A stretch of 64,000 nt of DNA from Cinnamomum chago (lineage: Eukaryota > Streptophyta > Magnoliopsida > Laurales > Lauraceae), in NCBI GenBank assembly GCA_038049695.1, contig CP142452.1:48194501-48258500 (forward strand), written 5' to 3'. Below are positions 1-63,587 of this stretch, piece after piece (within the stretch, counting starts at the first letter, position 1; each line of letters starts with the position of its first letter). Under the pieces are notes generated by a model. That model ran no database searches, was not told where the DNA came from, and saw only the letters and a list, made by a program, of their open reading frames with translations. A program made the translations under genes and the position numbers.

Positions 1-243
1 ATGGGTTTTCTGCACTCAGCGAGCACAGGCGAAAGCCTGTCCGCTCGAGCGACCAGGCCACTGCTTGGTCCGAGCGCAGACAGAGAGCTGTCCGCTCGAG
101 CGACCTTATGGTCCACTCGAACGAACTACCCACTGTCTGATCTGGGGCAAGGCAGATAGTTTTCCGCCCGAGCAACCTTATGGTCCGCTCGAGCGAACTA
201 TCTCGCTCGAGCGAAGTGTCAATTCCGCTCGAGCGAACCTGCC
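1..243. repeat. LTR palindrome cassette, XhoI-core type
   Basis: At least five copies of a dyad centred on CTCGAG are clustered here, for example TCGCTCGAGCGA at 203-214, a perfect 12-bp palindrome. They are embedded in imperfect tandem repeats that also carry GGTCCGCTCGAGCGAAC-like text. The same cassette type is present at 22109-22315 and, inverted, at 62765-62995. Confidence 0.85.
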
Positions 244-1611
244 AGATTCAAGGAAAAAGAATTGTTCTAGTTATGTATTTTCTTGAAGGTTGTAAAATTA
301 GACTATGTTAAGGGTTTTGACTTGACATTGTGTAAATGGAACTTCGAAATGCAACCCAACTTCGGGGACACCAATTCTTGTACATTCCAACTTTTGGGGT
401 CCCAATTACACAAAGGTCAATTAATAGCCTTAACACATGCTTGACAGAGTCCGTATTTGAATTTATGTTTTGGTACGATAACTACCATCGTGCACTCGTT
501 TTGGATTTCAAGTGTAAGCTCGTTTGAAGGTTTGTTTCAAGAATCAAATGGGGATCACTTCTTAAGCGTGTTGTGCAAATAATTATGCATCCTTGCTAGC
601 CGTGTCTTGTCTTGCTTTGATAAGTGATTTCCCCTTTTTACCTCGATACGTTTAGACTGTGTTTCGCATGTTTTGTGCATTCATGAATTTAAGTGAACAC
701 CACTGAGCTTGGACTGCCCTTTCAGTTTGATCCACTGTCTGGGGGTCCTTAAACATGTGGACTGTCTGCAGACTAGTCGTGTATTTTATTACACATCGTG
801 CGTGTCCGGTTCCGCGGCCGGAAATCCCCGTATATGTGGGAATCGTGTCGTGATTATATTATGTATATCGTGCTTGTCGTGCGTGCTTGCTCTTTTCATT
901 ATAAATGATAGAGAAAGGATGGGCTCCTTGTAGAATGTAACTATTCATGATATTATATGTATCCATGCTAGTTTGTTTTAGTATCTCAGCTTTGTTATGT
1001 ATTCTCGAAAATGTATCTCAATCATTGTACTAATTCAAATAAGGGATTTGCTTATATGTTTTCTTAAAACGTTTATTGTTTCATGCTTGCACCTAAATTG
1101 ATTACCTGCCAAACCGTCGTGTTTGATCCTTGTTTGTTGGTGCCCAGGTGCAGGAGACGTTGCCTTTTAGGAGGAGTGTCCGGAGGAGGCTCTTGAGCCA
1201 CCCCTAGCTAGAGAGTGGCAGCCCGACGATGTAAATTAGACGTCGGGCGGGTTCTTGAGTTTCGTCATTTTGTCATGGGGTTTCTTTTATTATTTTGAGA
1301 ATTGTATTGGCCTTTGTTGGCCTCTTATGGGATGTAACTAACTTAACTTACTTTCGTGTTAGTCTCATAACTTGAATTATGATGGGATTACCTTGTTAAC
1401 TCCTTTCTTTTGATACTATGTCTTGTTATCATTTGTCATAGCACTTAAAAATTTATTGGTGCTTATCTTGATGTGATTTGCTACACGCTTCCGCAAACTT
1501 GTTCATGTGAGTTAGATTCCGTGTGTGTAAGGGAATCCTCACCGCGGGAACCTGTGGGAAAACACACCATCACACGTCGCGGGCCCGAGAATCCGTTCTG
1601 GGGTCGCGACA
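1..1611 (+). mobile_element. Tekay-type Ty3/gypsy LTR, 3' part (subfamily A)
   Basis: This is the distal part of a long LTR, cut by the window edge. It is homologous, in the same order, to 22109-22486 plus 49026-50209 and to the LTRs at 26192-29156 and 32866-35866. It ends in the family terminus GGGTCGCGACA. The next bases do not form a primer binding site, so it is either the 3' LTR of an element lying to the left or a solo LTR. A palindrome cassette occupies about 1-243. Short open frames here recur in the other LTR copies and are not genes. Confidence 0.85.
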
Positions 1612-7430: not shown

Positions 7431-7494
7431 TGGAAATCCGGTGGGGTGTTGGTTTACAAGGAGGTAGTGGATGTAGGCATTGAGGCCGAACCAC

Positions 7495-11352: not shown

Positions 11353-11989
11353 CTAAGTGTCACGCCCCCGAACCAGAACCTCGGGGGCGGGAAATGGGAT
11401 TAAGCATAAAATATATTTTACTTCTCCCAGGATCCGCGTGTGTGAAGACAACACATTCTGAATATTTTGCGGAAGCATGGCGTTACGACCCGAAGTCCGT
11501 GGCCATCGGATTCCGCGTCGCACTCAACCTTCAGCATATCGCTATTATATCAGGAGTCATATCAGACTGGAGTAACCAACACAATAAATTACAGAGCTGA
11601 CAGTAACAGGATATTACATTCCCAAATATGTTCAAGTTACAATTATCAATGTACGTTAATTAAGAATCCCAAGGAAAAGGCTAACAAAAGCCATACAACA
11701 AGAAGCTATAAACTACTACCCAAATGTGACGTAGCTCCGATGTCGAGCTCAATGTCTACATGACATAGCCGACAAACCAACCTGCAAGGCATGGCTCCAC
11801 AGCCAACAAAACACTCAACTCGGGGCGAAGAAATCTGAACCTGAGTACCAAAAGTAGTGGGCCAGACACGACGGTCTGGCAGGTGGATGAAAAGATAACA
11901 AATATACTGAAGAATAAAACATAAGATACATCATGCTATTCGATCAAATGCTGCATATAATTAAACGGGTGCAAAAGTCGGGAATCTCG

Positions 11990-12625
11990 GGGAAAACCTG
12001 TATTCATTTCAAGCATGGGTAAAACATGAATATCTAACAAAACATGTGTTCATTTACATATCATCTATAATCATAGATATTTGACAATCGGGTGTTCGTC
12101 TAAAACATGTATAAATATAGCGGTATGGCCAAAACAACGTTCATTTGAGACTTAAGTAAAAACATGAGTATACAACAACCAGGTATTCATAGCAGTCTAG
12201 CAAAACCAATATCCATTTGAAACCTATGTAGAAATGCGGATATTTAACAAACCGGATATCGTTTAAAACAGGTATAAACGTAGGGATCTGGCAAACCAGT
12301 GTCATTTGAAACATATTTCAAAGCATGGATACTTAACAAATCGGGTATCATTTAAAATAGGTATAAACATAGGAAATCTGGCAAACAAGTGTCATTTGAA
12401 ACATATTTCAAAGCATGGATATTTAACAAATCGGGTATCATTTAAAAACAAGTATAAACATAGATATCTGACAACCAAATGTCCTTTAAAGCAAGCTCGG
12501 ATATTTAACAATTCGGGTATTCCTTTAAAACATGTGTAATCATATAAATCTAGCAAAATCATTGATCGTTTGAAACATATGTAAAAGCATGGGTATTTAA
12601 CTAATCGGGTAATCATTTAAAACAT
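11990..12625 (-). repeat. Tandem array of about 90-bp units inside a solo LTR
   Basis: Six to seven diverged units share AAAGCATGGATATTTAAC, TCGGGTATCATTTAAA and TCTGGCAAAC. Two clear neighbours are offset by exactly 90 bp (12321 and 12411). The homologous solo LTR has the same array at about 41600-42110. The 3.1-kb LTR at 57242-60357 lacks it. Confidence 0.8.
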
Positions 12626-13494
12626 GTGCGGGTACAAAGAACAGAAAATAATATAATAATAACTGAATTTACATTGGAGAATATTAGCACTTGTTTAAAT
12701 AACAACTTTCATAAAGGAAACGAATCATTTATCGGAAAGCAAGTAAGCAATATAAAACATGTCGGGTATCCAAGGAATCGGGAACTGGCAAGATGGCAAT
12801 CACAAGAAGCTAAGTCCTCTATCACCGAAGTGACAAGAGTATAACGGGACGTTGGTCTCAGTCACACAAGGTGAGGAGACTCAACGTAAATCATATATAC
12901 AATATAAATATACGGGAACGGGACCACGGTAGCGAACCGGGTATCGGGACGGGACCACGGCAATAACCGGGTATCAGGATCCAAACTGCAGCTGGCGGGA
13001 CGCGAGAGGGATTTCCAAGTCGGTGGATCAAACCGACAAGGTATCCAAGCTTAGTGATGCCGACTCATAGGTCAAATAACAAATCGGGACATATGCAAGT
13101 AATTCGAGTACAGTAAATAAACGGGTAAAACGGGGGTGCTCAAGGGCACACTGTCATTTCATATCGGGAATACATCTCGGGACAAATAACTGTTACTAGA
13201 GTAACTTCAATGCTTTCGGGAAAACAAGTCATATAATGCAAATCTTGGAAATGAGGTGAAACAATACTATAACAATTTCGGGAAAAATATTAATTTCAAG
13301 ATCTATTTAAGTGAATAGGGGTCCTGTATGTCGATTATAATAATTTACTTGGTACTCCTTGAGTTTGAAGACATTCCGGGCTCCTTATGCACTTTGGATT
13401 TTCAACACTTCGAATGACATTCTCGTGATATGGTTTCTTTCTCGGATGGCCTCATACAATGCCTAGTGAATCTCCTTTGATCGACAAAGCTCAA

Positions 13495-13850
13495 CGCTCG
13501 AACGAACCGGAGAGTTCGTTCGAGCGGGGAGCTTTTCGAAATCTGGGGAATTTCGGTTACCTGGTGGTTAGCTGCCGCTGGGGCAGGCGGCTAGCCGCTG
13601 GCTGACCGCGGCTGGGCTGCAGAAATGCAGCTTACTGGAAAGCTGACCGCCAAGTGCGGTTACCTGGCGGTTGGCCGCCGATGGGGTCGGCGGTTAGCCG
13701 CTAGCTAACCGTGAGGCTGACCGTGTTTTTAGGTGGAAAATGATGCTCTCTGGAAAAGGAACCGTGACATCTCGGCTACCTGGCGCTTAGCCGCCAGTCA
13801 CCAGGAGGCTAGCCGCCGGGTGACCGCAGGCTGACCGCCAGTGCGGGAAT
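13495..13850 (-). repeat. Mixed palindrome cassette (XhoI-like plus NheI-core types)
   Basis: A perfect inverted repeat with 13-bp arms, CGCTCGAACGAAC (13495-13507) and GTTCGTTCGAGCG (13514-13526), is followed by an array of NheI-core dyads. The best example is GCGGCTAGCCGC at 13587-13598. Two cassette types that are separate elsewhere are joined here. Confidence 0.85.
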
Positions 13851-15572
13851 CACCCACTATGTTCATATTTGAGTCATTTTCCTCCTCAAAACCATCCTCC
13901 TCACTTCCACTTAATCCTTGCCACATAACTGAGCTGAAAGCTCCTTCAATGCAACTATTTACACTTCTCCAAAAACCCAACTTGTGATCATTCATCACTT
14001 CATTCCTCCACATCCCATCCATACCAAGAAGGAAGGAAACCATTTCACAAGCATTCATTTAGGATATAACCCAAGGACAATACATGCTAAACCAACATGT
14101 TTACAAAACATTAAATGACTTAGCCAACCACATTCCTCATGAAAACTCCAATGAAAAAGTAAAACTAAACATCTCCTTTCTTCTCACTTAAAACCAAACC
14201 AAAGGGAAGAATCCCCATTGTATACAAGGGTCCATTTGCCATAATCAAGGGGTAATTAAAAACCCTTGATCCCATTTCCAAGACAATAGATTAGTTGGCC
14301 AAACTCTTTAAATGAGCTTCTATTTCAAATCCATACAAGCTAGTAAACATAAACATGGGTGGGGAAACCAACCCCATTCATTTCAAGACCATGTGAGCAA
14401 CTTTGACAATTTGAAAGAATATCTTTCCAAGAAACTAACAAGAGAGAAACAACCATTGATATGCAATTTCGAAATCAATATATATATGGCAAGAAGCATA
14501 TGTGAAAACATGTATCCAATGATCAAGGACAAGTAATAAAATTTAGGATTTTCTCATAAAACTTTGATAACATTCAAACCATCCATTCATCCACTTGCCT
14601 TGGGTCCCAAGCTAGCAAATCAAGCCTCTAATCACCTCTCAAGCTCAAGATCAACAATCTCTACAAAAACCCCCAAAACAAACCCTAAAATGGGTTAAAC
14701 AAAGGAAGACAATGAATGGGCTCATACCAAGCTAGGAAATAGAACTTGAGGGAAAGCCATTGCACAAAAAGGGAAAATGGGAAGGAGTCTTTACCTCTAG
14801 AGTCATGAATCAACAAGAAGAAGCTTGCAATAGGGGCTGCCCACCTTGGTTTCCCACAAAAATGGTGTCAAACAAGAGGGGAGATGAAGGAGAAGAAGTT
14901 GCCGGAGCTTCCTCATCGGATTGGTGGCTTGGAGGCTCCATAAGAGTAAGAGAAATGGAAGAAATGAAGAAGAAGGGCTGCTGGCACTGTAGCTGGGAGG
15001 TTTCAGTCGATGGAATGGAGAAATGAGGGAGAAAGAGAGTGGAGTCACTTATATAATGGGTGGGTGTGGGTCCCACTACACTCAAAGCTTGCAAAGGGTA
15101 AAACATCTATTTGTGGGCCTCGGATGCGATCGACGAAGGAGAGAAAGATGTTTCTCAAAAAATCTAGTTTCCAAAAAGTATAACTTTGGCATGGTTTCGA
15201 GATCTCGAAATTTGGGTCCATATTTGGTGTGAAAAGACTGTTTTGCCCTCCGGGCTGGAAAAAACTGATTTTCGGAGCTTCGAATGGGTACGGAGTGAAC
15301 ACGGAAGTTGTAGAGGTTAACAAAATGAGTCAAATGAGGCTAAAACAAGAATTATCAGGAATTCAAATAATCTCCCAATCTCGCGCAAAGTCACTAAAAG
15401 AACCCCCAAAGGGTCCCACTAATCACAAAGGCCCTCAAAATTCCCCAAAACTAGAGAAAAACCATTCTAGCTCACAAACTCAACCCAACAAATACTAATC
15501 CCACTAAAAGAAACTAATCCACAAATAAACAACACTAATCCAAGAGATTAGGGGTCGGGTTCTCACACTAAG

Positions 15573-15872: not shown

Positions 15873-17643
15873 TGTTACAGATTTTGTATATTGCAATTTG
15901 ATGGTTGCATTATCATTTTAGCATCATTTGAATTTTCACACATGCATTGATTTAGAAATTCTTGAAATCTTGATTTACACATGCATGTTTTGATTTTAAA
16001 CTTGGATGCATTTAAATTTGAAAAGAAGTTTTATGAATCAAGTAAGCCTATGAGTTTTAAATCTTTCAAATCATTTTAGGCTTTTTATGCTTCATGTTTT
16101 TAAACCTCTTAGTTTGATTTAAATCATGATTCCAAGCTTGATTCAGTGGCCCAAAATTCCCCTCAAAGAAATACTTTGAAATATGCATTTTTTTCGGGGA
16201 AATTGGTCCCTGGGGCCGGGTCGACCTGCAGTGTGCTCGGTCGACCGAGCCCATGGACCCGGTCGACCGAGCACTCTGCAGGTCGACCCGAAAAGAGCCG
16301 TTGGAGCTCTTTCTCAAACGATCATATTTATGACCGTTAAGCCCAGGTCAACCGGGGAAAGGTGCAGTTCGACCGGGGACTCACAGGAACTCAATTTTTT
16401 AGTATAAAATAAGGTTCATTCCATTGGAAAAGATGTGGATCAAAGTAGAACTAAGAGCCACTCTTAAGGAGTTTGGAGACAAGAAAAAGGGGAATGAACT
16501 AAGAGAGACCAAGGGGTAATTAGTGAAGCTAAATCTTGGATCATTGAAGTTAAATCTCTAAGTAAGCTTTACTTTTATTAATCATATGTTATATGCTTTG
16601 TTTAAATTATTGTTAAATGAATTTTAGCATGATAACTATGATGTGTTGAATCCATTCTTCATTGAATCTTTGATCTAAGTTGGATTGGATTCTTCACCTT
16701 GATTTCAAACCAAGTTTGTTTTAAAATCTTCTTTAATCATGCTTAGCCAAAATATTTGATTTCTTTTATAGCATGATTCATTTACTTGGTTGAATCTTTA
16801 TTTGTTGTTTTCATTCATTTGAACCTTAGTTAAATTAGTTTGGTCTTGAAAACAACATTGCACATGCATCACATGTTTAGAGTTAATTAGTTACATACAA
16901 CTTGTGAGCCCTTGATTTTCATTTCATCAACAAGTTTGTATTCATATATGTGATTTGCATTTTACTTCAATCAAAAGCTTTTATGTTCCTTAAACTTTTA
17001 AATGCTTTGAGCATATATTGATTGATCTTACTTTTTAACTTGATTAAAGTTATCACACACACACACACATCATGAGCATACACCTTTGCATTCATATAGT
17101 GTTTGTGTGAGTTAGTTTTTCAATTTCATATCGGCCTATTTTAGAGGCATTGTAATTGAGCTTAAATTGTATCTCTTTTTGTGTTTGTGTAGACACTAGT
17201 TTGAGAGAAATCTTTCTTATTGTAAAGGTTATTGCTTAGCCTAAGAAAAGCATAGTGTAGAGGTTATTGCTTAGCCTTGGAAAAGCATCTTGTAAAGTTT
17301 ATTGCTTAGCCTAGAAAAGCACATTGATATGTTGTTGTTTAGCCTAGAAAAACATTGTTGTAATGGTTTATGCTTAGCATTTTTGAAAAGCATAGATAGT
17401 AGAAATCCGGTGGGGTGTTGGTTTACAAGGAGGTAGTGGATGTAGGCATTGAGGCCGAACCACTATAAATCTTTGTGTGATGGTGTATGGTTATGGTGAT
17501 TATTTTTATTAGCTTCCGCATTTTGTTTGATAATCATCACTAGTGGCTAGTTAATTTTAAAGAAATTAAAATTTGGCTTAATTGGTCACTAATTGTAGCT
17601 TACCCTATTCACCCCCCTCTATGGTTAGGATCCCGGACTTTCG
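15873..17643 (+). mobile_element. Sirevirus 3' LTR
   Basis: It begins TGTTACAGATTTTG after the polypurine tract and ends in GGACTTTCG, equivalent to the 5' LTR end. At 1771 bp it is complete. It holds a SalI-core palindrome cassette (16205-16385), a (CA)n run near 17055, the stem-loop repeats (17218-17396) and the TATA box (17464-17470). Its reverse-orientation relative is the solo LTR at 46630-48323. Confidence 0.9.
16205..16385. repeat. Palindrome cassette, SalI-core type, with a long inverted repeat
   Basis: GCTCGGTCGACCGAGC at 16235-16250 is a perfect 16-bp palindrome. It is part of a larger inverted repeat: 16217-16247 pairs with 16260-16290, 31-base arms with one mismatch and a 12-base spacer. 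More GTCGAC-type half sites follow at 16345-16375. It lies about 1.1-1.3 kb upstream of the TATA box. Confidence 0.9.
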
Positions 17644-20111
17644 ACAACAGCATCATAGACCACAGCAACAGCAACAGGCCCACCAACAGGGACAGAATCT
17701 GAATCAGCGTCCCCCACAGTAGAACTGAGACGTCTAACAAGGTAGGCCACATTAAGCTAAGAATAGGCCATAACATCGAGGGCAAATCTATGCGGTCAAT
17801 AGGGCAGATGCAGAGGCAGCAGGCAATGTAGTAGAAGGTACACTCCTCGTTTGTGGGAATAAAGCTAGGATTTTATTTGACCCTAGCTCTACACACACAT
17901 TTTTGTCTCATGCATTTTCTAAGTTGATTGATGTGAATGAAAGAGAACTTGAATATATTTTGACTGTGGCAACCCCAGTAGGTAAACAAGTTATTTGTAG
18001 AATATTTTATCCTAGTTGTGCAGTTCAGATAGGAGAAGTGGTGTTAACCGTAGACCTTATTTTATTGGAGATGCATGATTCTGATGTCATCCTAGGGATG
18101 GGCTGGTTGGCAAGGTACCATGCCACGATGGATTGTTTCCATAAGACCCTTACTTTTAAATTAGATGAGACACCAGCAGGAGTGTTTTTCAGGGAGAGAG
18201 GAGAAATCCCCGTGCAGGGTTTGTCTCAACGTTGAAGGCTGATAGACTATTAAGAGGTGGATGTGAAGTCTATTTGGCGTTTATCACGGAGGATAAACGG
18301 TCCCAAGGGGTGGAGGAGATCCCTATTGTTTGGGAATTCCCTAATGTTTATCTGGAGGAGATTCTAGGATTGCCACCCATTAGAGAGATTGATTTCACTA
18401 TTGAGTTATTACCAGGGACCACTCCGATTTCAATTGCACCTTATAGAATGGTTCCGGCAAAATTGCGAGAATTGAAGATACAATTACAGGAGTTGTTAGA
18501 CAAAGGTTTTGTGAGACCAAGCATTTCACCATGGAGAGCTCCAATTTTGTTCGTCAAGAAGAAGGATGGTTCAATGAGGATGTGCATAAATTACAGGAGA
18601 TTGAATCAAGTGACCACCAAGAACAAATATCCATTGCCAAGGATATATGAACGGTTTGATCAGTTACAAGGTGCTTCGTATTTTTTGAAGATTGATTTGA
18701 GATCCGGTTACCATCAGCACCGAACAGACTGCAGATGCATGTACTACCGTGACCGTCTATGCGTTCCCAACATTGAAGATTTGACGAATGATATCATGAC
18801 CAAGGCCCACAGTACGAAGTACTCTATGCATCCAGGTAGTACGAAGATGTATCAGAATTTGAAAGGCAGATTTTGGTGAAATAACATGAAGAGAGAGATT
18901 GCAGCGTTTGTCTCCCGCTACATGACTTGTCAGTTGATAAAGGCAGAACATTAGAAGCCTCCAGGGTTGTTACAACCATTAGAGATCCCGGAATGGAAAT
19001 GGGAGCACATTATTATGGATTTTATTTCGGGACTACCGAGGACCAGCAGAGGCAACGATGCGATATGGGTCATTGTTGAACGTCTCACCAAGTCAGCTCA
19101 TTTCATTCCTATGAGGATAGGAAAGAAGATGCACATGCTACCTTTGGCAGAGTTGTTTGTCAACGAGATTGTCAGCTGATATGGATAGCCAGTTTCTATC
19201 ACATCTGATAGAGATAGCAGATTCACCTCGACATTCTGGAAGACACTACATTATTCCATGGGTACGAAACTACAGTTCAGCACGGCTTATCACCCGCAGA
19301 CAGGTGGCCAATTAAAGAGGACCATTCAGACTCTTGAGGATATGCTCCGTGCTTGTGTATTGGATTTTAAGACCCAATGGGCTAAGACATTACCATTATG
19401 TGAATTTGCTTAAAATAACAGTTACCATTCGAGCATTGGGATGACGCCTTTCGAGGCATTGTATGACAGAAGGTAGGACACCGGTATGTTGGGAAGAAGT
19501 TGGCATTCAAGGTATTCATGGACCAACCATAGTGAGTGAGACCAGTGACAAAGTCAAGCTAAACCAAGAATGTCTGAAAGTGGCTCGGAGTAGACAGAAA
19601 AGTTATGCAGACTCTCATCGAAGGGATTTACAGTTCGTTGAAGGAGACAAAGTTTTCTTGAAGGTGTCACCTAGAGGGGAACATTGAGATTTGGGTAGAA
19701 GGGCAAGCTATCATGGAGGTACATTGGACCGTACGACATTGTGAGTAAGATTGGTGATGTGGTTTATAGATTAGCCTTACCACCTGAACTATCCGGCGTA
19801 CACAACGTCTTCCATGTATCAATGTTGAAGAAGTACGTCCCCGACCCTTTGCATGTACTCCGGCATGAACATTTGGAAATTCAAGAGGATGCTACCTATG
19901 TGGAGAAGCCTGTTCAGATCATTGATACGAAAGAACAAGAGTTGAGGACACGGACCATTCATTGGGTAAAAGTGATTTGGGAGAATCATGGACCGGAAGA
20001 AGCAAAGTGGGAATTGCGAGATCAAGTACAGAAGAAGTATCCACATCTACTACCTGAGGTGAGTTGTGTATTCCATTTGGTGGACCAAATGTCCTAATAA
20101 GGGGTCGAGGA
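17644..20111 (+). mobile_element. Tekay-type chromovirus internal region (fossil, subfamily B)
   Basis: Recognisable parts in order are: a Gln-rich gag tail (17644-17740); a retropepsin-type protease (about 17860-18200; FDPSSTHTF, then DVILGMGWL); the N-terminal part of reverse transcriptase (about 18340-18720; [31 protein letters not shown]); integrase zinc-binding and core segments (about 18740-19480; [14 protein letters not shown]); and a C-terminal chromodomain-like segment (about 19900-20060; WVKVIWENHGPEEAKWEL). The chromodomain is the Tekay hallmark and is thought to steer integration into heterochromatin. RNase H is not recognisable. The region has many breaks. A purine tract (20099-20111) leads into the 3' LTR. 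The Sirevirus-type element ends inside its gag tail. Confidence 0.85.
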
Positions 20112-28428: not shown

Positions 28429-28437
28429 TATATAAAT
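28429..28437 (+). promoter_or_regulatory. Candidate TATA box of the Tekay LTR
   Basis: TATATAAAT is preceded by TTTTCAT and followed by GATAGAGAAAGG. The inverted counterpart in the LTR at 61400-63587 is nearly the same, but the copies at 35140 and 49513 are weaker. It lies about 600-1050 bases downstream of the cassette. This is a sequence match only. Confidence 0.4.
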
Positions 28438-40264: not shown

Positions 40265-40320
40265 CTGCTTTACGCCCAGGTCCGATCGATCGGACGTGCA
40301 GGCCGATCGATCGGACTGTC
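40265..40320. repeat. Palindrome cassette, ClaI-core type
   Basis: GTCCGATCGATCGGAC at 40280-40295 is a perfect 16-bp palindrome. A second copy, CCGATCGATCGG at 40303-40314, is a perfect 12-bp palindrome, with CAGG just before each. This is the shortest cassette in the window and the only one with this core. Confidence 0.9.
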
Positions 40321-41599: not shown

Positions 41600-42110
41600 T
41601 GTACACACACATGTTTTAAATGAATGCCGGTTGGGTGTACACCCATGCTTTTACATATGTTTCAAACGATCCATGATTTTGCTAGATTTACATGATTACA
41701 CATGTTTTAAATGAATACCCGAATTGTGAAATATCCATGCTTTGAAATATGTGTAAATGAATACTAGTTTTGTCAGATTTCTTTGGTTACACCGGTTTTA
41801 AATGAACACCCGGTTTGCTAAATATCCGTATTTTCACATATGTTTCAAATGGACATTGGTTTGCCAGACTGCTATGAATACCTGGTTTGTTGTATACTTA
41901 CGTTTTTACCTAAGTCTCAAATGAACGTTTGTTTTGTCAAACCACTATATTTATACATGTTTTAGACGAGCACCCGATTGTCAAAATCTATGTTTATAGA
42001 TGGTGTAAATGAACACATGTTTTATTAGATATTCATGTTTTACCCATGCTTGAAACGAATACATGTTTTGCCTGAGATCCACGATTTTGCACCCGTTTAA
42101 TTATATGCAG
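41600..42110 (+). repeat. Tandem array of about 90-bp units in the subfamily C LTR
   Basis: Diverged units share ACATATGTTTCAAATGAAC-like text, CCCGATTTGT-like text and ATATCCATGCTTT. Inverted, this is the array at 11990-12625. Confidence 0.7.
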
Positions 42111-42720
42111 CATTTGATCGAATAGCACGATTTATCATATGTTTTATTCTTCAGTATATTTATGATCTTTTCATCCACCTGCCAGACCGTCGTGTCTGAC
42201 CCACTACTTTTGGTACTCAAGTTCAGATTTCTTCGTCCCGAGATGAGTGCTTGGGTTGGCTGTGGAGCCATGTTTTGCAGGTTGTTTTGTCAGCTATGTC
42301 ATGTAGACATTGAGCTTGACATCAGAGCTACGTCATATTTGGGGTAGTGATTATAGCTTATTGTTGTATGGCTTTTATTAGCCCTTTTCTTGGGATTCTT
42401 AATTAATGTACATTGATAATTGTAACTTGAACATATATGGGAATGTAATATCCTGTTACTGTCAGCTCTGTAATTTATTGTGATGGTTTACTCCAGTCTG
42501 ATATGATTCTTGATATAATAGCTATATGCTAGAGGTTGAGTGCGACGCGGAATCCGATGGCCACGGACTCTGGGTCGTAGCACCACGAAAGCTTCCGCAA
42601 AATATTCAGAATGTAGTGGAATGTGTTGTCTTCACACACGTGGATCTTGGGAGAAAAATATATTTATGCTTAATCCCATTTCGCGCCCCCGATGTCTCGG
42701 AGTGGGGGCGTGACATTATG

Positions 42721-46624: not shown

Positions 46625-48328
46625 CCCCATGAAAGTCCTGGGATCCGAACCCTAGAGGGGAGGTGAATAGGGTGAACTTCATTTATGACCAATTATAACC
46701 AATTTTAACTTATTTAAAACAAACTAGTCACATGTGATGATTAATCATACAAGATGCGGAAGCTAACAAAATAATCACCACAAAGCAATCACCATCACAC
46801 AAGGATTTATAGTGGTTCGGCCTCAATGCCTACATCCACTACCGGCTTGTGAACCAACACCCCACCGGATTTCCACTATTTATGCTTTTCAATAGGCTAA
46901 GCAATAACCTTTACAATGTTGTTTTTCTAGGCTCAACAACAACCTTTACAAGATGCTTTTCAAGGCTAAGCAATAACCTTTACAATGTGCTTTTCTAAGG
47001 CTAAGCAATAACCTTTACAAATGAGGATTTTCTCTAAGAAGGTGTCTCTTCAAGAACACTCTAAGAGATACAATTTAAGCTCAAATAAAATGCCTCTATA
47101 TAGGCTGATGTGAAGGTGTAATTCAAATTACAAACATACACTAAACTAGGCTAAAGTGTGTGTACAAGTGAATGAATGTTATACTTCAATCAATTTCAAC
47201 AATGAAGCTCTAAAAAGTATGCTTGATGCAATTTAAAATTAAGGCTTTAGAAAATGATGATTGCAGGTGAATGCTAATCACATGAAGAATTCAAATAACT
47301 TAAAGAAATGATCTAAAACAAGTTGTATGAATAGTAAGGTCTAAGAACACATGTGATTTAGGCATGAGACTTTGCAAACCATTTTTAATATACCAAAGAT
47401 GATAATGAGTTTTCAAAACAACTCTCTAAGTACTAGAAATCATGCATAAATGGAAATACAAAGATTTAAACATGCATTGATTCTACTTTTAATGGAAATA
47501 AAAAATGATAAGTAAGATGTACCTTTTTAAAACTCAAGTATTTGATTTCCAAATAGCCCTCTAGCCTTTCCAACTTCTTCCCCTTTCTTTTGCTCCAATA
47601 TGGTCTCAAAGGTTCATTTTTCAAGCACCAAAGAAGGTTGGAAAGAATGGACTTTATAATGAAAAACAGTCCAACGGCTAGTCCCCGGTCGACCTGGAAA
47701 CAGGTCTCGGTCGACGGGGAAAGAACAACGGTCATATTTCTGACCGTTGGAGCTTCAGGGACCCTGACGACCTGCAGTGTTGCCGGTCGACCGGGATCTG
47801 TGGGCCGGTCGACCGGCAACACTGCTGGTCGACCAAAATTCCCAAAAATCTATGTTTTCAAAGTATTTCTTGGGGGAACTTTTGGCCACTGAATCGAGCT
47901 TGAAAAACATGTTTTAAAAACAACCTAAGATGATTAAAAACATGAAACACGAAAAGCCTAAAATGATTCGAAACTTTAAAACCAAAGGCTAGCTTAATTT
48001 CTAAAAACTCTTTTCACAAATAAATGCATACAAAAGTGATTCTGAAAGAGATGAATGTATGCAAGGCACAAACCTAAATTCTCAATATGATTTCTCAAAA
48101 GTAAAGCACAAAGAAATAGGTTTTCAAAAGAGTTTGGATTCTAAAACAAATGCATCCAAGTATAAAACCAAAACATGCATAAATCAATACTTTTGAAAAT
48201 CTTAAAAACAATGCATGTGATAAACAAGATTTCAAGTTTTTCTAAAACAATGCATGTGTGAAAATTCAAATGATGCTAAAGAGAAAATGCATCCATCAAA
48301 TTGCAAATACAAAATTCCTAACACCCCA
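46625..48328 (-). mobile_element. Solo Sirevirus LTR with CCCCA target duplication
   Basis: The LTR is 46630-48323 (1694 bp), minus orientation; on the minus strand it begins TGTTAGGAATTTTG and ends GGACTTTCA. CCCCA flanks it at 46625-46629 and 48324-48328. The 5' LTR of the host copia keeps the uninterrupted target (23463-23467). It is homologous to 15873-17643, including the inverted TATA region (46805-46811) and stem-loop repeats (46885-47025). It carries its own SalI-core cassette. Confidence 0.96.
47675..47840. repeat. Palindrome cassette, SalI-core type, with a 21-bp inverted repeat
   Basis: Arms 47774-47794 and 47805-47825 are perfectly complementary over 21 bases, with a 10-base spacer, and each contains CCGGTCGACCGG. 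Extra half sites lie at 47683-47715. It is at the homologous place to 16205-16385, but the sequence between and around the dyads has changed. Confidence 0.9.
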
Positions 48329-49025
48329 CACTAGCCCAAGATATTAGAAAGTAACTAATCTTACTTGAGCTCCAAAAGGAAGGAATTAGAAAGTTATTAT
48401 TTCTATTTGAAGTGGGACTTCTAATAGTGGTAATACTAAGCTACTAATTTGTGTGGAAGTGTGACTTATAATACAAATTAGTAAGAGAGTTAAAAAAGGA
48501 GTGATGAGGGCTATAAATAAGGGAATAAACACCTTGGACATTCTATACATTGATTCACGCCCAGCTCTCTTTATTTGTGCAAGTGTTGCACAATTTTCTC
48601 CTCTTCTCTCTCTTTTATTTCTCTTCTAGTTCCTTGGAGTTTCTAGTAGGGTTTTCTCTTGGAGATCCCACCCATCTTCTTGAGAAAAGAGATCTGATAG
48701 AGGGTCATAGAGTGGAAGACAACAAGGTCTTGGAGATCTCTAATTGCTTCAAGAAGAGTTCTTGTTCTAGTTGATTGTCTTCTCCTCGATTAGAGCACTA
48801 CCGGGCTCCAAAGGTATAATCTGCTTCTCCTCTTGTGGTAGATTATTTTGTTGCATGTAGTTGTTGGTTTCTATCTTCTAGATAGGTTATATTGATGTAC
48901 ATGATTGATGAGAATGAGGGATTGCATCCTGGATATGGTTAATGGCCTTATGGATACTTGATCCCTGAGTCAAGTGGGTAAAAAAGAATTGAAAATCTAT
49001 CCACGAGGCCCGCCTCCTTCCAACA

Positions 49026-50209
49026 CAAAGGTCAATGAAAGGTCTTAGCGTAAGCTTGACAGACTTCGTGTTTGAACTTCAGTTTTGGTATGATAAGTAC
49101 CTTCATATGCTCGTTGAATTTCAAGTATAAGATCGTTTGAAGACTTATTTCAAGTATAAAAAGGGGACCACTTCTTAAATTCGTTTGCATATATAATTAT
49201 GACTTTTGCTAGTTGTGCCTTGTTTTGTTTTGATAAGTGATTTTCCCCCTTTTATCTTGGCGTGTTTAGACCGTGTTTTGCGTGTTTTATGCATTCATGA
49301 ATTCAAGTGAACACCACTGAGCTTGGACTGCGCCTTCAGTTTGATTCACTGTTTGGGGGTCGTTAAACATGTGGACTATCTGCAGATTGAAAGTGTATTC
49401 TATTACACATCGAGCGTGTCCGGTTCGACGGCCGGAATCCTCATATATGTGGGAATCGTGTATTGTTTATATTATGTATATTGTGCTCGTTGTGGGTGCT
49501 TACTCTTGTCATTATGTATGATGGAGAAAGGATGGGCTCAATGTGGATTTTTACTATTCATGATATTATAAGTATTCATGCTATCTTGCTTTAGCATCTT
49601 AGCTTTTTTGTATTCCTCGAAAATATATCCCAGTTAAGTAATTGTTTCAAATTCAGTAATTTATTCGTTATGATTTTCTTAAAACATCTATTGTTCCATG
49701 CTCATACCTAAATTGATTACCTGCCAAACCGTCGTATTTGATGCTCGTTGTTTTGGTGCCCAGGTACAGGTGACATTGCCTATGAGGAGGAGCGTCAAGA
49801 GGAGGTTGTTGAGCCACCCCCAGTCAGAGAGTGGCAACTCGACGATGTCAACTAGACGTCGGGTGGGATCTTGAATTTCGCTTCATTTTGTTATAGGTTT
49901 TTTTGATTTTTTTGCGAATCGTGTTGGCCTCTTATAGGTTGTAACAAAACTTAACTTACTTTTGTGTTAACCCCCAAAACTTGAATTATGATGGAAATGT
50001 CATGTTATAATTCCTTCTTCTGATATCTTGGACTTGATGCTATTTAATTGTTGCACTTGAAATTTTATTTGTGCTTGTCTTGATTTGATTTGCTACACGC
50101 TTCCGCAAACTTTATCGTGTGAGCTAGATTCCACGTGTCTCGGAATCCTCACCGCGGGAACCTGTGGGAAACACATCACAGGCCCGGGCCTGGATCTGGG
50201 GTCGCGATA
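49026..50209 (+). mobile_element. Tekay subfamily A 5' LTR, second part
   Basis: Continuation of 20780-22486 beyond the copia element, collinear with 27970-29156 and with 410-1611. It ends GGGTCGCGATA, followed after four bases by the PBS, which makes this a 5' LTR. Confidence 0.9.
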
Positions 50210-50213
50210 GGAT

Positions 50214-50869: not shown

Positions 50870-52418
50870 TGTTAGGGTTTTCATTAGTTTGCAATTAGAT
50901 TGGATACATTCATTTTCATAAGCTTGATCTCTCATACTTCTTTATTGGAATCTTCTTGCATTATTTTTAACTTAGCATCAAAGGTTTTTACTCATACATG
51001 TTTTGATTTGCTATTTTAAATTAAAAGAAAAACTCTCTTTATCAAACATGTTAGTTTTTAGTCTAGCTTAGTTCTCCAAGACCAAACTTCCCTCTTAAAA
51101 TCATTTTTCAAGTCTTTTAAAAATAGGAAAAGTTCAGTCAGCCGAACTTGGTTCGGTCAGCTGTCGGTTCCGGATCCAGAATGTAAAATTTGTATATCAG
51201 GGAATGTCGGTCAGCTTGTTGGTCTGTTGTCGGTCGACCGAACTACTGCTTGGTGAACCGACACCTTTACAATAGTCCGAAATTTTCAAAAATATAGCTA
51301 TTGGATTATGACCATTGAGTTCGGTCGACTGAACTCCATTTGTCGGTCGACCGACAATAGATCCGTTGGAGACAAAATTCCTTATAAAAGAACCCTTCCT
51401 TGGTTTTTGGGCCAACACTTTTGAAACTTTTGAGGGCCAAGGAAGATGGGACATTCATGCTAAGCTAGAAGGAAGTTAGGAGGGAAAATCATCATGACAA
51501 ACCTTTGATCTTTCATTGGGTTTGCTCTTCTTATCTTATTTTATTCATCCTTACTTTCAAATCTTTAATTTCTTCAAATGGCATGATTAAATTATTCAAA
51601 GTGTTCAAATGTTGAGTGTTTAAACATGCTTTGATTTTAAAATATGTTTATCATTTTAACTTCATCATTTGATTAGTAATCTTACATGTTTAGACATTTA
51701 ATGTTTCTTTCAAACTTGTTAGTTTCATCTTAAACTTCCTAAAAACAAGTTTGTTCATTATTTCAAAAGATATGTTTAGTTACTCTATCTCTCATTTACA
51801 TCATTCATGAGCATTGAATTTCAAATGAGATAGAAGTAGTTTTAAGGTATATGTATCATTTATTGATCTTTGCATTTATCATGCATATGCCTTAGTTTGA
51901 TTACAACTTTCATATCAGCCTATGTTAAGAGGCATTTAATTGTTTTCACTTGCATCTCATAGTATGCTAGTTAGGCATAGTTCTTGAGATTAAAAATCTT
52001 GTTGTAAAGGTTTATGCTTAGCCTATTGAAAAGCATATGAGGCTGTATAGGTTAATGCTTAGCCTTAAGTAAAAAGCATTTGTGGTTGTAAGGTTGGAGG
52101 TTAGCCTAAACCTTAGTATTGATAGTGGAACTCCGGTAGAAACACAGGGAGTGGATGTAGGTATGATTGGCCGAACCACTATAAATTTCCTTGTTATGGT
52201 GATTGTGTGGATGATGCACTTATATTTATTCTTTTCTTATCAATATCAACTTTGATTGTATTCATTGGTTCTTTACTTGGTATTAGACTTTTCATCAATA
52301 ATCAAGTTAATGAACTATTAAAACATAATTTATTTTGGTTTAAAGAAGAATTGGGCATTGGAATTGAGTGTACCCTATTCACCGCCCCCCCCCCCTAGGG
52401 TTCGGTTCTGGACTTTCA
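50870..52418 (+). mobile_element. Sirevirus 5' LTR
   Basis: 1549 bp, from TGTTAGGGTTTTCATTAG to GGACTTTCA. It has a palindrome cassette (51130-51365), three stem-loop repeats (52005-52115), TATA box TATAAAT (52180-52186) in CCGAACCACTATAAAT, and a C11 run (52385-52395). It is clearly related to the LTRs at 6373 and 15873 in its 3' half and much less in its 5' half. Confidence 0.92.
51130..51365. repeat. Palindrome cassette, SalI-core type
   Basis: TGTCGGTCGACCGACA at 51341-51356 is a perfect 16-bp palindrome. Variants around TTCGGTCGACTGAAC (about 51319) and TCGGTCGACCGAAC (about 51230) accompany GGTCAGC dyads of the kind found in the Tekay NheI-core cassette. Confidence 0.88.
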
Positions 52419-57241: not shown

Positions 57242-60200
57242 TGTCGCGACCACGGACCGGGCCCCGTGGGACTAATCCGGGACCAGGACGGTAATGTGGT
57301 GCGGTGAGTGTACACATTTATTTAATTTCCCACAGGTGTCCGCGGTGAGGATATCACAACCATATACGAATATTTCTTTTAAGTGCGGAAGCGTGCAATA
57401 AATCAAATAGTCAAACCATCTCTAGTCATAAGGACCATAACACAAGTATAAACATTGTATCAGAATGAGCAATGATCATCAGTACGTTTCCCGAAAGTGA
57501 GTTAGAGTTTTAAACAAACGTTCATTTTAGTACATTCCCAAAAATAGAGGCCAACAAAGGCCAATGTAAACAAAATATCAATCCCCTAAAGAATGGTTAA
57601 ATGTTCCCCAAAATATCACGTCTCTCGTAGCAACCAATGTCTAAATGACATCATCAGCATGCCACTCAACTAGGCGTTGTGGTTCACCGACCGCATCCTT
57701 AAGCTTCGCCTCGGGATAGACAACGTCTGGACCTGAGTACCAAAGAGTGGGTCAAACACGACGGTTTGACAAATGGGTGAAAAGAGATAACAATTCAATA
57801 ATAAATACATTTACCTTTAAAAGCATTTAAACCTGTTCGATCAATAACTTCATTACAGAATCAAATCATTTAATGAAAGCATAAGTATAGTGTAAAACAT
57901 GTATGGGTATCCAAGGAAATCAGGGAAACAAGCAAGATGGCAACCACACAAAGCTAAGTCCTCTATCACTAAAGTGACAGAGCAATAACTAGGCACTGAT
58001 CTCAGTCACTCGAGGTGAGGAGAAACAGTGGATCTTATAAATACATATACATATACTATACATGACCACTGTAGCGAGCCGGGCATCGGGAACCACAGTA
58101 GCAATCTGCGGCATTGGGACAAGACCACGGTAATGACCAGGTAGCGGGATCCAAACTATAGCTAGCAGGACAAGAGGGGGATCTCCAAATCAGGTGATCA
58201 GACTGACAAGGTTATCCAAGCTTAGTGGTGCCAACTCATAGGTCAAATATTTGAAATCAAGACATGTGCAAATAAATCAAGTACAAGTAAATAAACGGGC
58301 CGGACAAGAATGCTCAAAGGCATAACTTTCATTTCATGTCGGGCAATGCATTTCGAGACAAGTGACTGTTACTAGTGTAACTTCAATGCTTTAGGGAAAA
58401 CAACTCATGTAATGCAAGTCTCGGGAATAAGGAAATACAATGAAATATTACAATTTCGGTTAAAATAGTGATTCCAAGATTTATTTAAGGTGAATAGGGG
58501 TCCCGTATGTCGATTGTAATAACGACTTGGTACTCCTTGAGTTTGAAGACATTCCGGGCTCCTTATACACTTTAGGGTTTTCAAAACTTTAAATGAGCTT
58601 ATAGATACTACCAGACGGTACGATTAAAGTCAAAAGTATAGACAATTCAATCCTAAGTACAATGTTAATCCTGACGCATCGGGCAACCTACTCAGTCATC
58701 GAAAGGGATAGGAGTCGCGATACTCAAGCAAATAGACTTCGTGCGTAGATATAAAGAAGGTATCGCGTTGTCCCATACCGTTCAAGATTGAATTAGATTG
58801 GATTCCGATACAACCGGAATAACCATGAAAAACGTCGGCTCAAGACTTCCTCACATATAGTCAAATGAGCCCAAAAAGGGTAGCCAAAGTCCCACCAAAG
58901 TCCATCCAGAAATAGGGTAAAAATCTCTCCCAGGAAGGATTTCACAGTTGGCTCGGTCGACCCCGTACACAGTAGCCCCGGTCGACCTAAGGAGGTCAGG
59001 TCGACCTGGTCCCTGTGTGCCCGGTCGACCGAGCCCATGGCCGGTCGACCTGCAGTTGTAACTGAAGAAAGGAGAATAGTGTTTTTGTCAGGTTCCAGAG
59101 AACCTGACCCTGTGTCGCTGGTCGACCGAGTCCCCGAGCCGGTCGACCACGTGCACTGCGGAACAGAACCCAGGTTCGGTTTTGCAGTGAGCTGGGTCCT
59201 TCTCTTTTTACCTCCTTCCAATAAATAAACAACCAACAAAGAATAGAGACAGCAATAGATATAAACCAATGTTTTCAAGACATTAAATGAGCTAGCAAGA
59301 TTCATTATGAGCATTTATTTCAACAATACAAATAAAAAAAAACATGAGTAAAATCACTTCGTACTTCATCAATTCATTTATAGCTCAGAACATCTAATCA
59401 TCCACTTGCCTTTGGTCTCTAATCAAGCAAATCCAAGTCTCTAATCACCTCTCAAGCTCAAATCCAAGCTACAAGCACAAACCCCCAAAACAAACCCTAA
59501 AATGGGTCAAACAATGAATGAAGAAGTTAGAACTCACTATAATGAAAAGGAGCTTCTCAAGGACTAGAAGAATACAAATCTAGAAGATGGAGAAGATTGC
59601 TTGCTTGGATGACCTTCAAATAGCAAGAGTTAGCTCAAAGAAGATCTTGGAATGAGAGGTTTTCTTCACAAATGGTATCAATAGGAAGCTTGCAAGGTGG
59701 GGAAGAGAATGATAACCTCCATTTCTTGATTGATGCTAGTTTGGTGTGGATTGGAGATGGAGAGAACAAGAAGAAGAAGAGAAAGTTGTAAGAGGAAACC
59801 CTAGGCTGCCTTTTGTGCTGGAAAAGGGAAATGGAAGATGGGTTCTCCTTATATAAGCAATGAGAATGGGTCCCACTACTTAAGAACTCTTTGGGCTGAA
59901 ATCATGTCTTTCGGGACTTCAAATGAATTCGACGAAGAAGGAAGAAATGATCGCCGAAATATCTAGTTTCTAAAAAGTATATGTTTCGTGGGTTTCGGGG
60001 ATATCAAATTTTGGGTACAGATTTAGTGTGGAAAGACTGTTTTGCCCTCAAGGCTAGTAAATCGGGTTTTGGGGTCTTGAATGGGAACAGGATCAACATG
60101 AAAGTTGTCAGGATTAACGAGAAAAATGAAACGGGATAAAAACACAAATCAAAACAATTCCGAAAAATCCCCTAAGTAAAAGCAAAGTCCTAAATGGAAC

Positions 60201-60357
60201 CCCAAAGGGCCCCGCTAGACCCCAAAGCACTCAAAATTCCCCAAAACTATAACAAAAGCTATTCCAAACCCAACTTAGCCAAAATCACTAATCAAGCTTA
60301 GAACTAACATGCGACTTAATTAACACTAATCGGGTTCACTCGGGTTGGGGTCTTACA
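57242..60357 (-). mobile_element. Tekay 3' LTR, minus strand (subfamily B)
   Basis: Shares its start with the LTR at 20112-20779 and its distal half with the two subfamily C solo LTRs, but lacks their 90-bp array. It holds the conserved LTR block (59895-60130) and a SalI-core cassette (58950-59170). Confidence 0.9.
58950..59170. repeat. Palindrome cassette, SalI-core type, in a Tekay LTR
   Basis: Six or more GGTCGACC dyads lie here, including CCCGGTCGACCGAGC (about 59020), GGCCGGTCGACC (about 59040), CTGGTCGACCGAGTC (about 59119) and CCGGTCGACCACG (about 59141). The same core and neighbouring words (GGTCGACCTGCAG) occur in the Sirevirus LTR at 16219-16233, an unrelated superfamily. Confidence 0.9.
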
Positions 60358-60372
60358 TCCTCCACCCCTTAG
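60358..60372 (-). promoter_or_regulatory. Tekay polypurine tract, minus strand
   Basis: Complement reads CTAAGGGGTGGAGGA, the same as at 32851-32865, abutting the LTR start. Confidence 0.88.
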
Positions 60373-61399
60373 GGCATTTGGTCCTCCAAATGAAATATAA
60401 GACTCACCTCTGGTAGTAGATGTAGATACTTCTTCTGCACTTGATCTCGTAATTCCCATGTTGCCTCTTCCGGTCCGTGATTCTCCCATAGTACCTTTAC
60501 CCACTGAATAGACAGTGTCCTCAACTCTTGTTCCTTTGTATCAATGATCTGTATGGGCTTCTCAACATAGGTAGCATCTTCTCTGATTTCCAAAGGTTCA
60601 TGCCGGAGTACATGTGACGGATCGTGGACATACTTCTTCAACATAGACACATAAAAAATGTTGTGTACGTCGGATAGCTCAGGTGGTAAGGCTAACCTAT
60701 AAGCCACGTCACCGATCTTGCTCACAATGTCATATGGCCCAATGTATCTCCATGATGACTTGCCCTTCTGTCCAAATCTCAATGTTCCTCTCGTAGGTGA
60801 CACTTTCAAGAAAACCTTGTCTCCTTCCTTGAATTGTAAATCTCTGCGGTGGGAATCTGTATAGCTCTTCTGTCTACTTCGAGACACTTTCAGGCGTTCT
60901 TGAATCAACTTGATTTTGTAGCTGGTCTCACTTACAATAGTCGGTCCATGGAAACTGTGAATGCCGACTTCTTCCCAACATACAGGTGTCCTACACCTTC
61001 TGCCATACAATGCCTCGAAAGGCGCCATGCCAATGCTCGAATCGTAGCTATTGTTGTAAGCAAACTCACACAACGGTAATGTCTCATCCCATTGAGTCTT
61101 AAAGTCTAACACACAAGCACGAAGCATATCCTCAAGAGTCTGAATTGTTCTCATTGATTGACCATCTGTCTGCGGGTGATAAGTCGTGCTAAACTATAGT
61201 TTCGTGCCCATAGACTCATGTAGCGTCCTCCAGAACCTTGAGACGAATCTGCTGTCTCTGTCGGATGTGATAGAAATGGTTGTCCATGTCGACTAGGAAT
61301 CTCGTTGACAAACAACTCTGTCAAAGGTAGCATGTGCATCTTCTTCCCCGTCCTCATAGCAATGAAATGAGCTGACTTGATGAGACGGTCCATAAGGAC
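60373..61399 (-). mobile_element. Tekay integrase and chromodomain region, minus strand
   Basis: On the minus strand the integrase core ([52 protein letters not shown]) is followed by the C-terminal part (WRYIGPYDIVSKIGDVAYRL, SMLKKYVHDPSHVLRHEP). The chromodomain (IIDTKEQELRTLSIQWVKVL, ATWELRDQVQKKYLHLLPE) is in about 60400-60560. It is the best preserved Tekay C-terminus in the window. Confidence 0.92.
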
Positions 61400-63587
61400 T
61401 GTCGCGACCCCGGAACGGATCCCGGGCCCGCGACGTGCGTTGTGTTGTTGTTTGCATTGGAGATATACTTTCCCACAGGTTCCCGCGGTGAGGATTCCCA
61501 AAGACATGCGGAATATAACTCACACGATCAAATATGCGGAAGCGTGTAGCAAAACACATCAAGATGAGCACAAATAAATTTTTAAGTGCTAAAACAAAAT
61601 AATCACTAGACATTGTATCAAAGGAAGAAGTTAAAAATGGCATTCCCATAAAAATTCAAGTTATAAGACTAACACGAAAGTAAGTTAAGTTTTTGTTACA
61701 ACCCATAAGAGGCCAACAGAGGCCAATACACTTCTCCAAAATAATCAAAAGAAACCCCAAGACAAAAGATGACGAGACTCAAGAACCCGCCCGACGTCTA
61801 GATGACATCGTCGGGCTGCCACTCTCTCACAGGGGTTGGCTCACAAGCCTCCTCCTGACGCTCCTCCTCAAAGGCAACGTCTCCTGCACCTGGGCACCAA
61901 CAAACAAGGGTCAAACACAACGGTTTGGCAGGTAATCAATTTAGGTGCAAGCATGAAACACTAAACGTTTTAGAAACATAAAAGCAAATCCCTGATTTGA
62001 AATACTACAATGACTGAGATACATTTACAAAAATATTTCATTGAGCTGAGATGCTAAAACAAACTAGCATGAGTACATAATATATAATGAATAGTCATCA
62101 TCCACAAAGAGCCTATCCTTTTTCTATCATTTATATAATGAAAAGAGCAAGCACGCACGACAAGCACGATATACATAATATAATCACGACACGATTTCCC
62201 ACAAAGACGGGAATTCCGGCCGCGGAACCGGACACGCACGATGTGTAATAAATACACGACCAGTCTGCAGACAGTCCACATGTTTAAAGACCCCCAGACA
62301 GTGGATCAAACCGAAAGGACAGTCCAAGCTCAGTGGTGTTTACTTAATCCATGAATGCACAAAACACGCGAAACACTATCAAAACTTGTCAAGATAAAAA
62401 GGGGGAAGTCACTTATCAAAACACGACGAACACGACTAGCAAAACACGCTTAGGAAGTGATCCCTGTTTTCTTGAAACAATTCTTCAAAACAAGCTTATA
62501 TTTGAAATCCAAAACTAGTACACGATGGCACTTATCGTACCAAAACGGAATTCAAACACGAAATCTGACAAGCATGTGTTAAGGCTGCTAATTGACCTTT
62601 GTGTAATTGAGACTCCAATGTCGAAATATATAAGAGTTCGTGTCCCCGAAGTTGGGTTGCATTTCGAAGTTCCATTTACACAATGTCAAGTCAAAACCCT
62701 TAAGATAGTCTAGTTTTTCAACCTTCACGAAAATACACATGAAAATAATTCTTCTTCCTGAATCTGGCAGGTTCGCTCGAGCGAACTTTATAAGGCGATG
62801 ACACTTCGCTCGAGCGAGACAGTTCGTTCGAGCGGATAATAAGTGCGCTCGAACGGACAGCTCTCTGTCTTGCTCCAGATTATAAAGAGGGCAGTTCGCT
62901 CGAGCGGACAACTCTCTGTCTGCGCTCGGACCAAACAGAGGCTTGGTCGCTCGAGCGGACCAGCTTCTGCCTGAGCTCGCAGAGTGCAGAAACTACCTTT
63001 CTCTTGTACAACCTCCACTACATTTTTCTCCTTCTTCTCATCCATCAATCACATACAATCCCTTGAGCCTTCATGCTCACCAAGGGTTCATTTATCACCA
63101 TTTTACACATCCAAATCCAATAAAACATAACCATGAAGCTTGTAAACAAATTTAATGCACAATTTCTAAAATACAATGAAATCAAAATACACATGCATCA
63201 TTTCCTAGAGAGATTACTTGCCTTGCCCAATGCTAACAATCCTTCTCAAGCACTTCACTCAAGCTATTCCAATGCTACAAGGAAACCCAAGAAAACCACA
63301 CTAACTCACTCAAAATGGAAACAAAGAACCCATTTTAACAAAAGGGTTTGAACACATGAAAAACATGATCTTTAAGAACTAAAAAGACCTCATGAATAAC
63401 ATGGATCGAAACTCTTACCTAGAAATAGTCAAACAAGAGGGAGGAAGGAAATGAAGAGCTTTCCCAACTTTAGCTTTCAAGAAGAAGATATCAATAGGAA
63501 GCTTGAGATGAGAGGAAGAAGGTGATGGTCTTGGAATCTCCTTTGGAGTCTTCTAGCTAGCTCATGCAAGAGGAATGAAGTGGAAGG
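61400..63587 (-). mobile_element. Tekay LTR, minus strand (subfamily A), split by another LTR
   Basis: The LTR terminus (GGTCGCGACA on the minus strand) is at 61400, inside the Tekay integrase region. The LTR runs to 63587, where a plus-strand LTR begins. About 2.2 of the expected 3.0 kb is visible. It carries the inverted TATA-like site (near 62129) and an XhoI-core cassette. Whether it is solo or part of an element cannot be told. Confidence 0.88.
62765..62995. repeat. Palindrome cassette, XhoI-core type
   Basis: GTTCGCTCGAGCGAAC at 62771-62786 is a perfect 16-bp palindrome. Further CTCGAG dyads lie near 62809, 62901 and 62950, with TTCGAGCG variants between. Inverted, it is collinear with 1-243. 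Confidence 0.92.

Follow-up and report, generated by a model that had tools for sequence, protein, structure and literature searches.

A 64,000-nucleotide stretch of the Cinnamomum chago genome (1.06 Gb in 14 contigs), CP142452.1:48194501-48258500 (C2), hereafter the window, carries long terminal repeats (LTRs) of both Ty3/gypsy and Ty1/copia retrotransposons, many of which contain an array of short GC-rich palindromes. Here we describe these arrays and the place in the LTR that holds them, the slot, above all in a group of Ty3/gypsy LTRs that we call family A. LTR boundaries were set by self-comparison of the window together with end motifs, which in family A are the start TGTTAGACCCC and the end GGGTCGCGACA, followed by the primer site TGGTATCAGAGC. 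The arrays are of type X (XhoI core, CGCTCGAGCG), N (NheI/HpaI core, CGGCTAGCCG and CGGTTAACCG), SalI (CGGTCGACCG) or ClaI (CCGATCGATCGG); a CGG-CCG core is present in N and SalI and absent from X and ClaI. The LTRs and arrays of the window are as follows:

1-1611, plus strand: A-family LTR, 3' part, truncated by the window edge
39-243, plus strand: X-type array of this partial LTR
11358-15567, minus strand: LTR B, strand from end motifs that match A on the minus strand
13495-13850, minus strand: array of LTR B, made up of N-type units (162 bp matching the N array of L053 at 78%) and an imperfect X-type pair
16205-16385, strand not assigned: SalI-core array in a copia (Sirevirus-like) LTR (S16)
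20783-22485, plus strand: LTR D, first part, a diverged A relative (~76% in the proximal flank)
22109-22315, plus strand: X-type array of LTR D
26192-29156, plus strand: A-family 5' LTR with end motifs, first G mutated, primer site at 29161, 95.5% match to 32866-35866
27380-27815, plus strand: N-type array of this 5' LTR
32866-35866, plus strand: A-family 3' LTR, partner of 26192-29156 in the same element
34050-34500, plus strand: N-type array of this 3' LTR
38730-42715, plus strand: LTR C, flanks 88-91% to B
40265-40320, plus strand: ClaI-core array of LTR C, two palindromes
47675-47840, strand not assigned: SalI-core array in a copia (Sirevirus-like) LTR
49023-50213, plus strand: LTR D, remainder after a nested copia element, primer site at 50214
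51201-51382, strand not assigned: SalI-core array upstream of copia-type genes
57242-60300, minus strand: gypsy LTR, relative of B and C, start approximate
58924-59178, minus strand: SalI-core array of this gypsy LTR
61400-63586, minus strand: A-family LTR, broken at ~63587 by the start of another, plus-strand A LTR
62765-62995, minus strand: X-type array of this minus-strand LTR

The palindrome clusters reported in an initial annotation of this DNA were found where it had placed them, while its LTR layout had to be amended in several respects. LTR B, whose minus-strand reading ends GGGGGCGTGACA as A does and whose strand is thereby set, and the LTR at ~57.2-60.3 kb both lie on the minus strand; 1-1611 is only the 3' part of an LTR; and the LTR at 20783-22485 resumes at 49023-50213. 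To say that every long LTR has a cluster was too strong, since the copia LTR at 22485-24165 lacks palindromes of this kind, and many palindromes are only 10 bp long and one 18 bp rather than the 12-16 bp originally given. The mixture of XhoI-like and NheI palindromes described for LTR B does contain both kinds, with a single perfect NheI-type palindrome (13587) and an imperfect X part.

Ty3-type domains lie at 31141-32683 (between the two LTRs of the A element), 18169-20097 (upstream of LTR D) and 60369-61193 (beside the 58-60 kb LTR), with reverse transcriptase and integrase domains adjoining the LTRs of A type and the one at 58-60 kb. Copia domains are matched by the genes at 42.7-44.2 and 52.5-56.0 kb, and the copia elements of the window appear Sirevirus-like. 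No Pfam family was matched at 29207-31022. A chromodomain is hinted at in 60369-61193 only, by a weak Chromo match (E 0.0028, below Pfam's cut-off), and the name Tekay is a putative lineage label taken from the initial annotation. Splice-like words in the A LTRs, AGGTAAGAG (~757) and TTGGTGCCCAG (~2487), are candidates only. Two nested arrangements were also seen: a plus-strand A LTR starts inside the minus-strand A LTR at 63586-63590 and runs off the window, and the copia element at 22485-49025 directly adjoins the X array of LTR D.

Array types and module replacement in family A

The start motif of family A (34 bases, at most two mismatches) has 2080 + 1980 matches in the genome. Sixty stretches were fetched from 100 listed places, 20 of the 60 being chosen as likely LTR pairs. 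All listed places lie on contig 1 and have zero mismatches in the start motif, so that the sample favours well preserved copies. Together with two LTRs of the window this gave 62 A LTRs, of which eight interrupted ones were dropped, leaving 54 with both flanks (52 fetched, 2 from the window). Removal of the second LTR of eight pairs and of six near-copies resulted in a de-duplicated set of 40 (23 X, 17 N).

Palindromes are far more abundant than expected. The window holds 44 perfect palindromes (at least 10 bp, at least 50% GC), whereas 50 block-wise Markov shuffles average 12.3 and never exceed 20. In the slots of the 40 de-duplicated LTRs, palindromes of 10 bp or more average 4.6 per 500 bp (minimum 1), compared with 0.47 when these slots are shuffled and 0.68 for the proximal flank. 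This excess, window-wide and in the A slots, leads us to reject chance, an origin of the clusters that the initial annotation had considered. In family A, the array begins ~1.17-1.2 kb past the start motif and comprises 1 to 9 perfect cores per LTR, counted in the LTR slot only and without imperfect copies.

When typed by the number of perfect cores that their slots contain, the 54 LTRs fall into 29 with X and 25 with N arrays, and 0/54 carry both. Markers for the array ends (at most two mismatches, tandem copies included) matched the genome 1032 + 1002 times for X and 913 + 833 times for N, and these similar counts indicate that the two types are about equally common. Type agreed within all 8 testable LTR pairs (of 11), so that conversion of just one LTR after insertion is unlikely to be frequent. 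Separately, 19 matches of the N-array end marker at C1:39287921-39428103 lie on one strand at regular steps of 7745 or ~7873 bp, i.e., whole elements in a satellite-like tandem run, and shorter tandem runs occur at C1:42006537-42024939 (4 at 6134 bp) and C1:48252364-48283739 (5 at ~7844 bp).

Differentiation between X and N is concentrated around the slot. Among the 40 LTRs, the fixation index (Fst) is 0.31-0.65 in 8 alignment windows from 897 to 1852 (0/500 permutations each), compared with values from 0 to 0.14 across 20 windows of the flanks. On a tree of the module the types part once with full support, while the proximal flank tree has 9 type changes, at least 6 of them forced by well supported (starred) branches, and the distal flank tree 7, at least 4 of them forced. 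The flanks at 400-890 and 2250-2650 correlate with each other (Mantel r 0.50), compared with 0.20 and 0.12 between the array and these flanks; the module changes while its two flanks tend to stay together. Individual pairs of LTRs display the same pattern. At 400-890, L059 (X) and L032 (N) show 97.8% similarity; they differ across the module and become similar again past ~1860. Two further pairs of opposite type, L005/L062 (94.1% in the proximal flank) and L027/L045 (95.5%), resemble them on the left side, and L027/L045 are similar on the right side to ~2220 and less so beyond. The left edges of these swap pairs lie at ~930-940, right after a conserved GGCAAGTAATCT block, and the right edges at ~1850-1870. 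Seventeen LTRs have a nearest proximal neighbour at 94% or more, and for 5 of these 17 that neighbour is of the opposite type.

Taken together, the conflicting trees, the Fst peak, the flank-flank correlation and the swap pairs support that the slot contents are a replaced module with edges near 935 and 1855. The replaceable cassette proposed in the initial annotation is thus borne out, though the exchanged unit is not the bare array but ~900 bp of array plus diverged homologous shoulders, and cassette type, while not tracking the flank tree perfectly, is not random on it either. Exchange also cuts inside the module, as the right shoulder of X3 (L007 group) and X2 (L061/L064) resembles that of N (0.80-0.86) more than that of X1 (0.66). 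If X and N were instead two old subfamilies that diverged gradually, with array types as plain markers and no replacement, one would expect the clustering of type above chance on flank trees and the slight differentiation in half of the flank windows. However, the Fst contrast with its near-zero flanks, the forced changes on both flank trees and the swap pairs contradict such plain subfamily drift in this sample, and we give it almost no credence.

The first 1.3 kb of internal DNA, compared in 12 elements, forms two classes that part after ~166 bp (L005, L015, L019, L035, L011, L013, L017 and L024 vs L007, L043, L058 and the window element). Both classes draw on one LTR pool, with X and N found in each. 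A tie between array type and the start of the internal region was rejected at Fst -0.10 to 0.01 among 13 elements (5 X, 8 N), a weak test in that the alignment mixed the two internal classes.

Arrays in a related gypsy family and in copia elements

In the related family that comprises LTRs B and C and the 58 kb LTR (flanks 72-91% alike; 748 + 777 genome matches of the B/C end motif), the slot is occupied by N together with X in B, by ClaI in C and L041, by SalI in the 58.9 kb LTR, by X in L004 and by an X array with one ClaI-type palindrome in L001. The SalI array at 58.9 kb has 40 scored genome copies at 84-100%, of 1271 first-look candidates. The occurrence of the same array types in differing families implies that the types either predate the families or move between them. 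Yet another family may carry X arrays, to judge from L003, which has XhoI-core palindromes and no match to the window LTRs at E 1e-8.

The claim that gypsy and copia elements use the same cores stands for SalI, which is the sole core that they share in the window. The word GGTCGACCGAGCCCATGG, with 182 + 177 genome matches, is present in the copia array S16 as well as in the gypsy array at 58.9 kb; among 100 matches listed, at least 4 lie in gypsy SalI arrays. A 26-base stretch common to the 58.9 kb gypsy and Sirevirus-type arrays has a score of 13.8, which was reached by 2/120 shuffles of the gypsy spacer in comparison with 12 SalI arrays on both strands (mostly Sirevirus-like by similarity and not each confirmed as an LTR). 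Acquisition of the SalI core through copia-gypsy sequence exchange is therefore only suggested, and a shared host factor behind the common core is equally possible.

Eight of the 62 A LTRs are interrupted. Five of the insertions (L014, L023, L031, L053, L055) are Sirevirus-like and all lie within the module at 958-1620 past the start motif, while the other three (two gypsy and one of no identified type; L020, L041, L052) lie outside it. Preferences of nested elements for certain regions and palindromes have been studied (PMC6911290). The slot could be a landing site in which inserted copia elements leave array remnants that become gypsy arrays, with SalI originating in this way. The five insertions and the common 26-base stretch would fit, but the insertion sample is very small, 2/120 spacer shuffles equal the score of that stretch, and self-comparison of the window detected nothing else of Sirevirus type next to the SalI array of the gypsy LTR. 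We consider this origin highly unlikely.

Possible roles of the array

Downstream of the slot, 53/54 LTRs have a TATA motif, 120-260 bp (mostly 199-201 bp) past a ACCACTGAG anchor, and the array ends ~650 bp ahead of it. The observed/expected ratio of CpG is 1.09 in the slot, 0.02 at 500-900 past the start motif and 1.02 at 1900-2300. Palindrome columns vary less than intervening columns, both in N (0.040 vs 0.143; 0/2000 permutations) and in X arrays (0.095 vs 0.175; 35/2000 permutations), with CpG columns included. Compensatory double changes make up 14/876 cells in X (1.6%, vs 1.0% in controls), next to 21 non-compensatory ones, and 0/430 cells in N, and single changes that retain a G-U pair are not favoured (X 30/98, N 5/30).

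Conserved palindrome bases without a clear excess of compensatory or G-U-keeping changes favour sequence-specific DNA recognition, by which the array would be bound as DNA by a dimeric protein. Among the functions initially proposed, a protein-binding array is favoured, if indirectly, by this conservation of single bases and by its position upstream of the TATA motif, whereas an RNA dimerisation or packaging signal is not. LOB-domain proteins, with their GCGGC half-sites, are one candidate for the binder, and the N core may resemble a GCC-box. Our literature search gave no direct support for a LOB-domain protein as array binder, and a text search with the literal core words returned matches swamped by cloning primers.

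In 2016, Bousios et al. reportedly described the palindrome clusters of maize Sireviruses as small-RNA hotspots (cited in PMC5311732 and PMC10760457). The arrays may act as RNA, either as hairpins for dimerisation or packaging or by feeding hairpin-derived small RNAs as proposed for these elements. Slot stretches of 250 bases are predicted to fold more strongly than shuffles, with a mean z of -3.9 (10 X) and -2.3 (10 N) compared with ~0 in the flanks. However, strong folding is expected of any array of repeated palindromes, and the counts of compensatory and G-U-keeping changes, albeit a weak test, disfavour RNA pairing as the main constraint, so that we consider an RNA role unlikely. Even less probable, in our view, is a neutral tandem-repeat region in which slippage grows and shrinks arrays and the palindromes are a functionless by-product. 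It would account for the tandem-like N units (~115 bp) and the variable array length, yet the palindromes are the conserved columns, CpGs included, and the same cores recur in published Sireviruses of other hosts.

We instead favour, with somewhat better than even confidence, the view that the slot is an exchangeable enhancer module in the unique 3' (U3) region of Ty3/gypsy LTRs, in which palindrome arrays bound by a dimeric host protein are swapped. This module sits between two conserved blocks and upstream of a conserved TATA motif, with a core made of palindromic DNA sites that are each probably bound by such a protein. It can be filled by any of several arrays that lack homology to one another (X, N, SalI, ClaI), and these would be swapped between element lineages by recombination ending in the conserved blocks, most likely through template switching between two RNAs in one particle. 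A lineage could thereby change its switch while keeping the rest of the LTR.

Several points weigh against an enhancer module of this kind. The exclusivity seen in family A fails in the related family, where B mixes N and X and L001 X and a ClaI-type palindrome, and X columns are conserved just moderately. Half of the flank windows (10/20) are slightly differentiated (at most 12/500 permutations), and LTRs of one type group together on the flank trees more than chance predicts (shuffled labels need ~13 changes), so that swaps are not constant. The sample is also limited to contig 1 and to copies with an intact start motif. More tentatively, and with chances that we put well below even, one host palindrome-binding system may serve both Ty1/copia and Ty3/gypsy elements. 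The gypsy elements would keep a multi-allelic slot across families, its alleles exchanged whole via the conserved edges and balanced by selection for variety (e.g., silencing escape), so that a selfish element would have the equivalent of a serotype or a mating-type cassette.

Known counterparts and implications

The closest counterparts are the repeated-motif (RM) boxes of Sireviruses, i.e., palindromic, CpG-rich arrays upstream of the TATA box that form CpG islands (Bousios et al. 2010, PMC2829016). The Vitis Sirevirus motif in that report is CGGTCGACCG, identical to the SalI core here, and its Citrus motif contains the N core CGGCTWRCCG, so that the SalI and N cores recur across hosts and superfamilies; 1/13 of the published motifs also lacks the CGG-CCG core. 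Like RM boxes, the A LTRs have a repeated palindromic motif clustered in the LTR, in a CpG-rich slot upstream of a TATA motif of predicted function. However, RM-box clusters start 200-400 bp into the LTR rather than ~1.17-1.2 kb, and are carried by Ty1/copia Sireviruses rather than Ty3/gypsy elements. RM boxes number at least 8 per element; the slot counts for A LTRs, from 1 to 9, are of perfect cores. RM boxes were called Sirevirus-specific among Ty1/copia, a comparison from which gypsy was apparently left out. The arrays here differ further from RM boxes, as far as the available text describes these, in coming as discrete alternative types that are exchanged. The same holds for the clusters of maize Sireviruses, which are likewise palindrome-rich, variable and located in the regulatory part of the LTR but belong to the other superfamily, with no discrete exchanged types in the portions available.

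Modular LTR evolution as such has precedents. In LTR7/HERVH, LTR blocks that each have their own binding-site module were exchanged between subfamilies by recombination in at least 6 events (PMC8912925), and as in these mosaic LTRs the blocks here give conflicting trees. HERVH is, however, derived from a human retrovirus and has many blocks instead of one slot, the accessible text describes no palindrome arrays, and expression was shown there whereas our data are sequences. Subfamilies defined by U3 are known from Tnt1/Retrolyc1/Retrosol (PMC1838419) and crapaud (PMC10787394, with U3 recombinants noted). They share with family A groups that differ mainly in U3 and a modular evolution, but the available parts of these reports contain neither palindrome arrays nor a test of one slot by both flanks. 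Template switching has been proposed for complex plant elements (PMC1950507). In our literature search, which was mostly without subscription papers, nothing described the exchange of palindrome arrays at a single slot of Ty3/gypsy LTRs.

While change in regulatory regions is known from plant LTR elements, its unit and route are rarely visible. Array swapping in one slot extends a palindrome type known from Sireviruses, and its presence in Ty3/gypsy LTRs points to a common host factor. One slot with discrete non-homologous arrays and two recombining edges, in thousands of copies within one genome, makes it a testable question whether a change of array alters the expression or silencing of an element and whether selection keeps several arrays.

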